Positions 4,537 to 8,546 of a stretch of DNA of 45,914 nt are shown piece by piece (position 1 is the first letter of the stretch; every line of letters begins with the position of its first letter). The DNA is from Melioribacteraceae bacterium (GTDB taxonomy: Bacteria; Bacteroidota; Ignavibacteria; Ignavibacteriales; Melioribacteraceae). The position numbers and the translations under genes were made by a program. The notes under the pieces are model-generated. The model saw only the letters and a program-made list of their open reading frames with translations. It was not told where the DNA came from and ran no database searches. Where the stretch lies: the NCBI GenBank assembly GCA_022181065.1, contig BQMY01000132.1:1-45914 (forward strand). Direction: 5' to 3'.

Positions 4537-5655
4537 ATACTTGTTCACCCCGTAATCTGAAACAGATAAAACCATCAATGGTATTACAAATGCCAGATAG
4601 GACAGGTCTATCTTGTCATGGAAAAATGCTGTGTCAAATCCGAATTGGTAAATTTTCAGGATAAAAGAGAGCATTACCATTAAAAAGATGATCAAACCGG
4701 ATGTAAAAAACACCTCCTGAAGAGTGGATACCATCCATCCGGCTAATAGTGCAGACAAAATAAATAGCAGACTAACGAAAAAGGGTAGATTGGAAAGATG
4801 CGACTGTATCGCAAACGGTCCGTTATTGAGGAATGCGTCCACATCCCACATTATAAAGGGAACAAGCATGCCAATAAAAACTGCTGCAATAACTATTGAA
4901 AAGAAAATCATATTCTTTAAATCGTAACGGAATCGGTAAAGTAAATAAATTGCGTAGATAACGGCTACCACTGATCTGGTTGATAGTCCGATACCAAACG
5001 CCACCGCTATAAGAACAAAACGGGAAGAGAGTTTTTGGGTGTCCAGATATTTTTCTGCTAAGTAAATAAGATATAGTATAAAGGTGACGTTGAAAAATAG
5101 TTCGCAGCGCACCACAAACTCGTAATAGATTACAGGTGTGGCTAGCAAAAGTAAAAATCTGTGACTCAACTCAGTTGTATTTGTACTTCCTTTGTAAAGA
5201 AGAAACAAAAACAAACCGAAACCCGCAATTTCGAAAATTCCAAGGAAGTTTATAAAGTAAAAGGGCATCGCCATAAAGAAGAGAGCAGGAAATGATGATG
5301 GTGTATAACCGGAATTATATGGGAATTCACCGGCAAAATATAAGTCGAGCCAATCAATAATTGCCGGTACTCTTCCAATCTCACCAATTCGGGGTACAAC
5401 CAGCACATACAATATCGATAGGATAAATGAAATGATAAAAAGGTACTTGAAGAATTTAAGATTCAAGAACTTATATCTCGATAAATCATGTTTACCGAGG
5501 TAAAGAAAAAAAATATAAAATAATGCTGCATAAGTAGATGTGATAATTGCCGGAAAAAAGTTATAGATGACAGAATATTTTAGGATAAATAAAAATCCTA
5601 TCAGTCCCACAACTGTAATTGATACAACATTGATAATTTTGTTTGAACTATACAT
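4519..5655 (-). CDS. Polytopic membrane protein, GT-C glycosyltransferase-like
   Basis: A protein of about 378 aa with roughly ten hydrophobic helices. It is probably in the inner membrane. The layout, with a short loop carrying an acidic residue pair after the first helices (IDWLDLYFAGEFPYNSGYTP), resembles GT-C polyprenyl-phosphate-dependent glycosyltransferases (GT87/DUF2029 type), but I see no decisive motif. ATG 5655 is chosen; an in-frame TTG lies 6 nt upstream at 5661. No clear ribosome site is visible. It diverges from the glutathione peroxidase gene across about 39 nt, so their promoters must be compact or overlap. Confidence 0.65.
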   Translation of the reverse strand: MYSSNKIINVVSITVVGLIGFLFILKYSVIYNFFPAIITSTYAALFYIFFLYLGKHDLSRYKFLNLKFFKYLFIISFILSILYVLVVPRIGEIGRVPAIIDWLDLYFAGEFPYNSGYTPSSFPALFFMAMPFYFINFLGIFEIAGFGLFLFLLYKGSTNTTELSHRFLLLLATPVIYYEFVVRCELFFNVTFILYLIYLAEKYLDTQKLSSRFVLIAVAFGIGLSTRSVVAVIYAIYLLYRFRYDLKNMIFFSIVIAAVFIGMLVPFIMWDVDAFLNNGPFAIQSHLSNLPFFVSLLFILSALLAGWMVSTLQEVFFTSGLIIFLMVMLSFILKIYQFGFDTAFFHDKIDLSYLAFVIPLMVLSVSDYGVNKYRGRYF

Positions 5656-5694
5656 CCGCAAAATAATGTTATTATCTAAAAATTGGAGTTAATG

Positions 5695-6258
5695 ATGTAC
5701 AAAATAGCAAAATCAATTCTTATTTCTATTTTTCTTTTTTCACAAATTTTATTCGGTGCTGACGGAGGCGAAAAAGTGAATAATATATATCAGTTTTCAG
5801 TTAAAAATATAGATGGTAAAGAAGTAAATCTTTCAGAATATAAGGGTAAAGTGCTGCTGATTGTAAATGTAGCCAGTAAATGCGGTTATACAAGGCAATA
5901 TGAAGGATTACAAAAAATTTATGAACAATACAGGTCGGAAGGATTAGAAATTTTAGGATTCCCGTGTAATGATTTTGGCGGGCAGGAACCGGGGACAAAT
6001 GAGGAGATAGTCGAATTTTGTACTTTAAATTTTGGTGTAGAGTTTCCCATGTTTGACAAAATTAAGGTATTGGGAGATGATAAGGATCCACTATATCAAT
6101 ATCTCACTACCAATGAAGATACGGGTAAAGGTGATATAGGATGGAATTTTGAGAAATTCCTTATCTCTAAAGAGGGGAAAATTTTGGGAAGATATAAAAG
6201 TGGTGTTAAGCCGGAAAGTGAAGAATTGACTATCGCGATTACGAACGCATTGAAATAG
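5695..6258 (+). CDS. Glutathione peroxidase family thiol peroxidase, exported
   Basis: A protein of about 187 aa in the GPx family. It reduces peroxides with thioredoxin-type or glutathione thiols. The catalytic set is visible: Cys63 in ASKCGYT (cysteine, not selenocysteine), Gln97 in FGGQEPG and Trp150 in GWNFEKF. A signal peptide covers about residues 1-21 (KSILISIFLFSQILFGA), so it likely acts in the periplasm. GGAG at 5685-5688 lies 6 nt before ATG 5695 and favours it over ATG 5692 or the upstream TTG 5683. It ends in a hairpin that has lost its T-tract through an insertion (see 6261-6514). Confidence 0.92.
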   Translation: MYKIAKSILISIFLFSQILFGADGGEKVNNIYQFSVKNIDGKEVNLSEYKGKVLLIVNVASKCGYTRQYEGLQKIYEQYRSEGLEILGFPCNDFGGQEPGTNEEIVEFCTLNFGVEFPMFDKIKVLGDDKDPLYQYLTTNEDTGKGDIGWNFEKFLISKEGKILGRYKSGVKPESEELTIAITNALK

Positions 6259-6260
6259 CT

Positions 6261-6286
6261 AAAAAGCCCCGAACAAAATTCGGGGC
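6261..6286 (+). terminator. Left half of a split bidirectional terminator
   Basis: AAAAAGCCCCGAA-CAAAA-TTCGGGGC forms an 8-bp hairpin 3 nt after the peroxidase stop, but GAGTTTG follows instead of a T-run. The missing T-tract is found 223 nt downstream after a second copy of AAAATTCGGGGC (6498-6509). Joining 6261-6286 to 6510-6514 restores a perfect 13-bp-armed terminator that would serve both convergent genes. Confidence 0.7.
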
Positions 6287-6497
6287 GAGTTTGTTGAAAA
6301 ACCTGATTGTTTATTTCCAAGTCCCCCTTCCGAAGGGGGAAATCACTCCGCCAGCGGCGGATTTTGTGATGGGGGATGACCAAATGTCGTGAAAAAAGTA
6401 AAAAAATCATCCTCCGTCTTCCGACATTCGTCGGAACCCACCTCCTTCGAAGGAGGATCTTAGAACGAAATGACTTTGCAATAGTCTGAGCTCAAAG
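6287..6497. mobile_element. REP/MITE-like palindromic element with 12-bp flanking direct repeat
   Basis: About 211 bp of non-coding, palindrome-rich DNA. It is flanked by AAAATTCGGGGC at 6275-6286 and 6498-6509, which looks like a target-site duplication. Module 1 has TCCCCCTTC-C-GAAGGGGGA (6322-6340) and TCCGCC-AGC-GGCGGA (6347-6361) enclosed by TCAC/GTGA, with GGGGGA again at 6371-6376. Module 2 has ATCCTCC (6409-6415) pairing with GGAGGAT (6452-6458), TTCCGAC/GTCGGAA (6419-6436) and the perfect palindrome CCTCCTTCGAAGGAGG (6441-6456). No ORF is present, so movement would need a transposase in trans. Confidence 0.6.
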
Positions 6498-6514
6498 AAA
6501 ATTCGGGGCTTTTT
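6498..6514 (-). terminator. Right half of the split terminator
   Basis: AAAATTCGGGGCTTTTT is the second copy of the 12-bp repeat followed by the T-tract that the left half lacks. It has no local pairing arm, because CTCAAAG stands upstream where GCCCCGAA should be. It lies 5 nt past the stop of the minus-strand TerB-like gene. That gene has therefore also lost its local hairpin. Confidence 0.6.
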
Positions 6515-6519
6515 GGTCA

Positions 6520-6987
6520 TTATATGTTCATCTCTTTTTTAACTTCAAGTTTGGAAGCAATAAACTGCTCATGCGGCATTTTAAGATTTGTGCTGATTTT
6601 ACGTACGTAATAATCTTCATACTGGTGGAGTTCTTCATCAACATAAACGAGCCGCCACAAATTTTTAAGTACTTCTTTTTTCTCTGCATCAACGAAGTTT
6701 TGATTTACGATATCAGTAAACTCATAAATACTGATACTTCGCTTTCTGTGTTCCTCAGAGAGGTCTATAAGATTTTCAACTTCTTCAGTATCAAGTTTGA
6801 AAGTTGATTTCATAATCTCAATAATTTTTTTTCTCTCATCGTCGGAGAAGTTTTCATCAGAGTTGGCTACTTCAAGAAATAAAGCGCAAGTAGCGATCTG
6901 GATTTTTTTCTTTTCATCAGGCTGGTCAAGTTCGGGTGTAGTGTCAACTTTGTGCGCCTGTAAAAGCTCTTTAAAGATATCTTTCAT
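6520..6987 (-). CDS. TerB-like (tellurite resistance TerB family) protein
   Basis: A 155-aa soluble, helical, acidic protein. ATCALFLEVANSDENFSDDERKK and LVYVDEELHQYEDYYVRKI are the two helical repeats of the TerB/DUF533 fold, where acidic loops may bind metal. TerB-family proteins are linked to envelope stress and metal responses, but the biochemical role is unclear. It begins 17 nt after malQ and is probably cotranscribed with it; no functional link is evident. A tellurite function should not be assumed from the name. Confidence 0.8.
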   Translation of the reverse strand: MKDIFKELLQAHKVDTTPELDQPDEKKKIQIATCALFLEVANSDENFSDDERKKIIEIMKSTFKLDTEEVENLIDLSEEHRKRSISIYEFTDIVNQNFVDAEKKEVLKNLWRLVYVDEELHQYEDYYVRKISTNLKMPHEQFIASKLEVKKEMNI

Positions 6988-7004
6988 TATTCAGCCCCTA
7001 AAAA

Positions 7005-8546
7005 TTATTCTTCGTGAGTTTTGATATCATCAAGGTCATCACTTATTTCAACGCCGCGTTGGTAAAATTGACACATCTCATTATATGCTCCGGCAAGATA
7101 ATCGGGTACCTGATCCCAGGTGTAACGCCAGGTCCAGTTTCCACCAAGTTTACCGGGGAAATTCATTCTTGCTTCTGCGCCCAGGTTCAGCATATCCTGC
7201 ATGGGAATTATACAAGTATCAGCTACCGATGCATAGGCAATTCTGATCAATTCGTTAGTAAGGTTGTCACCATGATAGTTTAAGTATTTTTGAGTCCATT
7301 CAAAAATACCGGAATTATTGGCTTTTTCTTCGTCGAAAAATCCTTTTGTAGTATTGTTATCGTGAGAGCCGGTATGCACAACGCAATTCTGCACCAGACG
7401 ATGAGGAAGAAATTTTTTATCCCCGGTTTCACCAAATGCGAATTGAAGGATTTTAATTCCGGGAAAATTGAATTTATCTCTGAGATCAACTACAGATTGA
7501 GTTATCACACCAAGATCTTCCGCAATGATAGGAGGTTCGCCAAGTACTTCCTTGATTCTGTTGAACAACTTATTACCGGGAGCTTTAACCCAGCGTCCAT
7601 CAATGGCTGTTTCAGCGTCACCCGGAATTTCCCAATAGGCATCGAAACCTCTGAAATGATCGATGCGAACGATATCTACCATTTCAAAAAGTTTTTTAAA
7701 TCGATTTATCCACCAGTCAAAGCCATCTTCTTCCATTTTTTTCCATCGGTAGAGCGGGTTACCCCACAACTGACCGGTTTTACTGAAATAATCGGGCGGT
7801 ACACCGGCAACTTTCTCGAGTTTACCTTTTTTGTCAACCGTGAACTGATCCTTGTTTGCCCATAAGTCCGCGCTATCGTACGCGATAAAAATTGGAAGGT
7901 CGCCAATAATTTTAATTCCTTTTGAATGGGCGTAATCAACTACATCATTCCATTGTTTATCAAAAATATACTGTACGAACTTCTGGTAGTTTATCTCATC
8001 AGCAAGTTTTTCGTTCCATTTTTTAACCGCGCCACGTTTCCTTAAAGCGATATCTTCGCTCCAGTCAGTCCACACAACACCGTCATGATATTTTTTAGCC
8101 GCCATAAAAAGAGCGAAATCATCCAACCAGAATTTGTTCTTTTTACAATAACTTTTATACTCTTTGTCATCCAGCATACCTTTTTCCGCAAAGATTTTGT
8201 ATGCCTTTGCTAGCAGCTCTGCTTTATACCCGATGAGTGGACCAAAGTCAATGTTATGGGGATCAAATTCCGGTACATTTTCAATATCTTCATCGTTAAG
8301 AAGACCATCGCGATGAAGGAAGTCGGGACTTACCATATTTGGGTTACCCGCAAACGCTGAGAAACATTGATATGGTGAATCGCCGTATCCGGTTGGACCG
8401 AGCGGAAATACCTGCCAGCGGGTTTGTCCACTCGCTTCCATAAAATTAATAAAGTTATAAGCTTCATGACCTAAATCGCCAATACCGTATTTACCCGGAA
8501 GGGAAGTGGGGTGCAGAAGTATTCCGGCGCATCTTTCAAATTTCAT
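7005..8546 (-). CDS. malQ: 4-alpha-glucanotransferase (amylomaltase) MalQ
   Basis: A 513-aa GH77 enzyme that moves alpha-1,4-glucan segments between maltodextrins or glycogen breakdown products. Motifs in order are GILLHPTSLPGKYGIGDLG at the N-terminus, VRIDHFRGFDAYWEIP with the nucleophile Asp, PIIAEDLGVI with the acid/base Glu, and HTGSHDNNTTKGFF with the third Asp. ATG 8546 is chosen because GAGG lies 5 nt upstream and the family N-terminus starts here. An in-frame upstream start exists at 8570 but adds non-conserved residues. The 513-residue length is normal for the bacterial enzyme. A TerB-like gene follows. Confidence 0.95.
   Translation of the reverse strand: MKFERCAGILLHPTSLPGKYGIGDLGHEAYNFINFMEASGQTRWQVFPLGPTGYGDSPYQCFSAFAGNPNMVSPDFLHRDGLLNDEDIENVPEFDPHNIDFGPLIGYKAELLAKAYKIFAEKGMLDDKEYKSYCKKNKFWLDDFALFMAAKKYHDGVVWTDWSEDIALRKRGAVKKWNEKLADEINYQKFVQYIFDKQWNDVVDYAHSKGIKIIGDLPIFIAYDSADLWANKDQFTVDKKGKLEKVAGVPPDYFSKTGQLWGNPLYRWKKMEEDGFDWWINRFKKLFEMVDIVRIDHFRGFDAYWEIPGDAETAIDGRWVKAPGNKLFNRIKEVLGEPPIIAEDLGVITQSVVDLRDKFNFPGIKILQFAFGETGDKKFLPHRLVQNCVVHTGSHDNNTTKGFFDEEKANNSGIFEWTQKYLNYHGDNLTNELIRIAYASVADTCIIPMQDMLNLGAEARMNFPGKLGGNWTWRYTWDQVPDYLAGAYNEMCQFYQRGVEISDDLDDIKTHEE

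Follow-up and report, generated by a model that had tools for sequence, protein, structure and literature searches.

The segment at 6287-6488 of the window, the whole 45,914-nt stretch of a Melioribacteraceae genome analysed here (contig BQMY01000132.1), is very probably a copy of an IS1182-derived MITE that inserted at a terminator hairpin and duplicated that hairpin whole. The preliminary description of this DNA had proposed a non-coding mobile element inserted, with a target duplication, in a terminator between convergent genes, a proposal that sister copies elsewhere in the genome support. The locus comprises the following features (evidence in brackets).

5683-6258, plus strand: glutathione peroxidase gene, the left neighbour (ORF; PF00255, E 4.4e-44)
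6261-6265, unstranded: A-tract serving as the T-tail of the predicted minus-strand terminator (sequence; terminator scan)
6265-6286, unstranded: left copy of the duplicated terminator hairpin, with its 8-9 bp stem intact (fold -15.9 kcal/mol)
6287-6488, plus strand: probable MITE copy, 202 bp, spanning family profile positions 1-202 (225 bits, E 1.1e-68)
6287-6303, plus strand: left terminal inverted repeat, GAGTTTGTTGAAAAACC (end-motif searches)
6322-6361, unstranded: inner module A, with hairpins at 6322-6340 and 6347-6361 (sequence; folding)
6409-6458, unstranded: inner module B, with hairpins TTCCGACATTCGTCGGAA (6419-6436) and CCTCCTTCGAAGGAGG (6441-6456) (sequence; folding)
6472-6488, minus strand: right terminal inverted repeat, which has diverged here from the minus-strand family consensus CAGACTGTTGACAAAGTC
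6489-6509, unstranded: right copy of the duplicated hairpin, with a decayed 5' arm (fold -5.4 kcal/mol, z 0.11)
6510-6514, plus strand: T-tail of the plus-strand gene's original terminator (sequence)
6520-6987, minus strand: TerB-domain gene, the right neighbour (ORF; PF05099, E 9.5e-29)

The peroxidase and TerB-domain genes form a convergent pair around the element, which starts 28 bp beyond the end of the glutathione peroxidase gene. The nested hairpins reported for the insert are real: it folds strongly both as DNA (z -4.3) and as RNA (z -4.9), with none of 200 shuffles equalling it in either case, and the predicted RNA fold contains the previously described 13-bp pairing between 6261-6273 and 6502-6514, which closes the whole insert. 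Only one ORF of at least 80 aa touches the element, a 104-aa frame on the minus strand that lies about half antisense to the upstream gene and is probably spurious. Rfam returned four sub-threshold matches and none above the gathering score for 5600-7100, and no tRNA genes were found in the window.

What was first described at this site holds in part and has to be revised in part. The motif AAAATTCGGGGC does occur at 6275-6286 and 6498-6509, 211 bp apart. With boundaries set by sister copies, the left duplication (6265-6286) reads AGCCCCGAACAAAATTCGGGGC and the right one (6489-6509) reads AGCTCAAAGAAAATTCGGGGC, so that the duplicated unit is the entire terminator hairpin of 21-22 bp. Only 12 contiguous bases are still identical because the 5' arm of the right copy has decayed, and the 12-bp duplication originally reported is the surviving half of the larger one. 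Nor does a terminator have to be reconstructed by excising the insert, as had been suggested, since terminator scanning and folding both place a complete hairpin at 6266-6286. On the minus strand this hairpin is followed by TTTTT and constitutes a canonical predicted terminator for the minus-strand gene; on the plus strand it was flagged too, with a weaker T-run (tail GAGTTTGTTG). On paper, then, each gene still has a terminator, good for the one on the minus strand and weaker for the one on the plus strand, which makes the earlier statement that both genes lack their original terminator too strong.

The insert belongs to a large family. Used as a query against its own genome (4.9 Mb in 164 contigs), it gave 51 matches, 40 of them strong, and a 21-bp core allowed up to three mismatches matched 92 sites, 46 per strand, compared with none for the reversed pattern; the search for further genomic copies recommended in the preliminary description therefore had a clear outcome. 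With oriented copies combined into a profile, the fetched loci yielded 106 matches, including partial ones and possibly some counted twice, from which we retained 56 complete copies having both ends and distinct flanks. These are 184-243 bp long with a median pairwise identity of 85%, and the family resembles MITEs in being short, non-coding and dispersed, with terminal inverted repeats and a target duplication. By gene context, assigned from simple ORF calling and lacking a control, 23 complete copies lie between convergent genes, 29 between co-directional genes and 3 between divergent genes, with 1 undetermined.

Several copies have themselves been interrupted by other elements. An element with ends CAATG..GTCAACTT splits MITE copies within their inner hairpins (loci L015, L044, L063, L070, L085, L091, L093 and L111), and its junctions break the assembly, because contigs stop shortly beyond them. 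A further element, with the end ..GTCAACCTATTTCAGGA and presumably IS3-like, splits the copies at L060, L086, L097, L115 and L160, near the left repeat in four of the five. At L121, positions 953-1949 hold five tandem units of degenerate MITE interior, each about 165 bp long, at a spacing of about 207-221 bp.

Comparison of flanks among copies establishes whole-hairpin duplication as a property of the family. Most of 19 copies aligned with their flanks adjoin a hairpin that varies from copy to copy and matches across each copy, as with AGTCCCCATCAGGGGACT on both sides of the copy at L005, AAGCCTCCAAAATCGGAGGCTT at L011 and a 29-bp duplication at L088. Flanking hairpins that differ between copies yet agree within a copy require insertion. 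Using a score in which the repeats must abut the element, 35 of the 56 complete copies reached at least 12, compared with 0 of 224 shuffled flank pairings; at a threshold of 8 the counts were 40/56 and 4/224, with both-side identity in 9 of those 40. The 16 copies scoring below 8 have no convincing duplication, and several of them are degenerate or truncated by eye. Stems scoring at least 6 abut the left junction in 31/56 copies and the right junction in 36/56, relative to 80/549 shifted positions, and the bases outside the duplications are enriched in A tracts (4.6 of 8) and T tracts (4.3 of 8) over a background of 2.6 (n = 40). Within the MITE set, hairpin length is only a loose guide to duplication length (Spearman 0.51; Pearson 0.23, p = 0.17; n = 39).

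These data bear on two readings that dispense with transposition or demote it. Had there been no insertion, two unrelated or slipped hairpins would lie on either side of an ancient intergenic repeat, with the 12-bp match arising by chance. The window copy taken alone, with its 12 contiguous matching bases and one flank that no longer folds, might be read in this way, but the excess of duplications over shuffled pairings (35/56 versus 0/224) contradicts it, as do the duplication-perfect sister copies L005, L011 and L088 and the element-free orthologous loci described below, and we consider it practically untenable. A domesticated composite terminator, that is, a repeat kept for its terminator or 3' UTR hairpins with the duplications incidental, is improbable, though far less so. 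It would account for the strong folding of the insert as DNA and RNA, for the internal hairpin at 6347-6361, which the terminator scan scored as terminator-like on the plus strand, and for the rarity of copies between divergent genes. Against it, the hairpins vary between copies and agree within each, for which insertion is needed, and no selection was seen on the hairpin that termination would need in 21 co-directional copies (6 better, 6 worse and 9 ties). Terminator function could nevertheless be a secondary role of the MITE.

Orthologous loci in relatives are free of the element. TerB orthologues occur in 41 of 78 same-family relatives, and 29 of the 41 were fetched and examined; the element profile matched none of these 29 TerB loci, and in 11 of them the peroxidase gene is convergent with the TerB gene, giving element-free versions of the locus. 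The spacer between the two genes is 15-76 bp in nine of these relatives and negative in two (-4 and -74 bp, kept as computed), and six spacers contain a hairpin evident by eye. The spacer in the window is 261 bp and shrinks to 38 bp when the element and one hairpin copy (223 bp) are subtracted. Many copies and element-free loci are the opposite of the single-copy, never-empty site that had been named as evidence against mobility.

Beyond its own genome, the MITE was not recovered. It was absent from all 28 relatives searched, and the 21-bp core had no match among public genome contigs, a set that possibly excludes its own genome. The right end had no match at one mismatch in 394 other genomes drawn from the phylum, and at two mismatches matched once in each of 11 genomes among 163 others from the order, relative to about 20 for a reversed control (our own count). 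The relative G013 has, at a terminator hairpin flanked by two convergent genes, an insert of about 139 bp whose ends are similar (L171, 1380-1518), and its right hairpin is degenerate.

An IS1182-family transposase is the likely mover of the MITE, judging from sequence comparisons. The relative G002 (Ignavibacteriae bacterium IGN16) carries a 1,570-bp IS encoding a 481-aa transposase with PF05598 (DUF772), PF13751 and PF01609 (DDE) domains, which scored 472 bits against the NCBIfam IS1182 model NF033551 (cut-off 270); the transposases of two public ISs scored 486 and 474 bits against the same cut-off. The ends of the G002 IS match those of the MITE at 16/18 positions on the right and 15/18 on the left, and ISs of Lentisphaera marina have one end that reproduces the MITE right end exactly (18/18 bp), with the MITE left end matching their ends at 14/18. 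The G002 IS has a hairpin at each end, and these hairpins, GAACTACTCCGTAGTTC and GAACTACGGAGTAGTTC, are reverse complements rather than direct repeats. They lie at 954-970 and 2541-2557 of L204, as if one had been flipped in repair or as if two separate hairpins were present. The G002 IS was selected from the 11 single end matches in the order, and because these are not above the reversed control, its weight rests on its transposase, both ends and the hairpins jointly.

No transposase of the G002 clade was detectable in the window's genome, and no autonomous partner with MITE ends was found there by end motifs, unpaired ends, IS1182 and general DDE families, or the transposase of the relative. 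The one IS1182-type gene of that genome (C95, L131) has different ends, GGGGCTGACTAAAAAG, and scored 250.9 against NF033551, below the cut-off of 270. The mover is therefore inferred from relatives, and the MITE looks orphaned; at a threshold of 1e-10, transposases related to that of G002 occur in 8 of 79 family genomes, the others being much more distant. A member of this clade would have moved the MITE.

A REP-type origin, with a RAYT (an IS200/IS605-like Y1 transposase) moving a REP or similar element, is a very unlikely alternative. The MITE is hairpin-rich and extragenic, and a Y1_Tnp protein (PF01797) is encoded near a lone element end in the same genome (L143, 3987-4550, minus strand), but the copies terminate in inverted repeats, are flanked by long target duplications and match IS1182 at their ends. 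Y1 transposases are not known to leave a target duplication, and a RAYT origin was rejected on account of the target duplications. REP elements are single palindromic units lacking terminal inverted repeats and target duplications, a description that the copies do not fit. Of the original REP/MITE designation, the MITE half thus stands, given the terminal inverted repeats, target duplications and IS1182-like ends, and the REP half falls. The RAYT-like Y1_Tnp gene at L143 itself lies between GGGAGGGT..ACCCTCCC hairpins, and the lone MITE-like end at 4633 abuts a hairpin.

ISs related to that of G002 also duplicate whole hairpins. Querying public genome contigs with the G002 transposase yielded 80 loci, 58 of which were tested (the rest being partial or too close to the locus end); ends could not be recognised in 4 of those tested, leaving 54 ISs. 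The duplication score was at least 12 in 45/54, and 41/54 have a perfect direct repeat 15 bp long or longer, figures that have no shuffled baseline and are biased toward duplications insofar as end pairs were picked partly on the duplication score. The 45 ISs with a duplication come from 34 genomes (hand count), and the genomes include Bacillus and relatives, Lentisphaera, Collimonas, Pseudoalteromonas and a Flavobacteriaceae bacterium. Across these 45, duplication length depends closely on hairpin span (r = 0.95), with agreement within 3 nt in 44/45; only L281, which has a 13-bp repeat, departs from this. Duplications in hairpin-flanked ISs range from 15 to 33 bp, and stems scoring at least 6 abut both ends in 46/54 ISs, relative to 69/533 single shifted positions.

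Nine ISs scored below 12 (L211, L227, L232, L269, L278, L205, L219, L244 and L265). Five of these (L211, L227, L232, L269 and L278) have two different complete hairpins at the IS ends, which suggests that they arose by recombination between copies, and L205 is the inverted-hairpin case of G002.

We propose that the MITE was inserted in the following way. A transposase would recognise its terminal inverted repeats and direct it to the foot of an intrinsic-terminator hairpin between convergent genes, where strand transfer would link both 3' ends of the element to both of the hairpin's 5' feet, after which gap filling would copy the hairpin on both sides. Each outward side starts with a hairpin and an A/T tract, and termination can therefore survive insertion. 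In the window copy, the right hairpin would have decayed later, with the left one still functional on paper for the minus-strand gene, where it may terminate transcription in vivo. If the hairpin were extruded as a cruciform at the time of attack, its feet would be adjacent at any stem length, and attack on the extruded structure therefore predicts that duplication length tracks stem length.

DDE transposases usually produce a target duplication of fixed length. The duplication described here varies in length and tracks the hairpin, which argues for DNA secondary structure as the real target in the cell. We therefore lean, by a narrow margin over doubt, toward a broader proposition: a widespread IS1182 clade and its MITEs would measure their target by DNA structure. 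The transposase would attack an extruded terminator hairpin, a four-way junction, and join at its 5' feet; the hairpin and not the enzyme would thus set the duplication length, and terminators would act as self-preserving safe harbours. Because the hairpin is copied and not destroyed, low-cost spread between genes is possible. If structure is the target, these insertions are natural recorders of cruciform extrusion at terminators.

Other mobile elements are known to favour such sites. Group IIC introns aim at terminators or palindromes. They and the REP-targeting ISs rely on other enzymes and are not known to produce whole-hairpin duplications. ISs that target REP sequences have been reported (PMC1525189). 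In Porphyromonas gingivalis, MITEPgRS and BrickBuilt resemble the window MITE in being short, non-coding and repeated, with terminal inverted repeats. As far as the available text of one report extends, BrickBuilt copies are often near predicted Rho-independent terminators, and the MITEPgRS repeat GAGACTGTTGCA resembles IS1182 ends (compare L195); in contrast to the copies described here, the duplications of BrickBuilt are short and inconsistent, and hairpin duplication was not found described in that text (PMC4596501).

The closest parallels lie within the IS1182 family, members of which were over-represented between convergent genes in a large survey (PMC9208149), and which differ from the window MITE in bearing a transposase. 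According to the portions consulted of two reports (PMC5678879, PMC4923244), IS1272 and TnSha1 of staphylococci, both of this family, recognise hairpin targets by structure; these are often transcription terminators, several of them confirmed, and insertion replaces the hairpin or deletes part of it, with no target duplication. The MITE and the related ISs share with them IS1182-family ends and a hairpin target. In the model figure for IS1272, joining at the 3' feet removes the stem-loop, and its duplication results from joining at the 5' feet (pathway b); whole-stem-loop duplication is drawn there as a pathway, and no example of it was found in the portions consulted (PMC5678879). In the open literature covered, we found no account of an IS or MITE observed to duplicate a hairpin-length target or a whole hairpin. 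A distant IS1182-type IS (28% identity) at L197 (1384-2921) sits in a hairpin loop, with the arrangement GCAGGGGT-ACG, IS, ACG-ACCCCTGC; the loop alone is duplicated, which corresponds to the third pathway of the IS1272 model. The MITE and IS data fit the 5'-feet, duplicating outcome of that model. IS1272 deletes its hairpin, whereas here the whole hairpin is duplicated (35/56 MITE copies and 45/54 ISs), and the two systems are thus complementary, allowing deletion and duplication outcomes to be compared within the same family.
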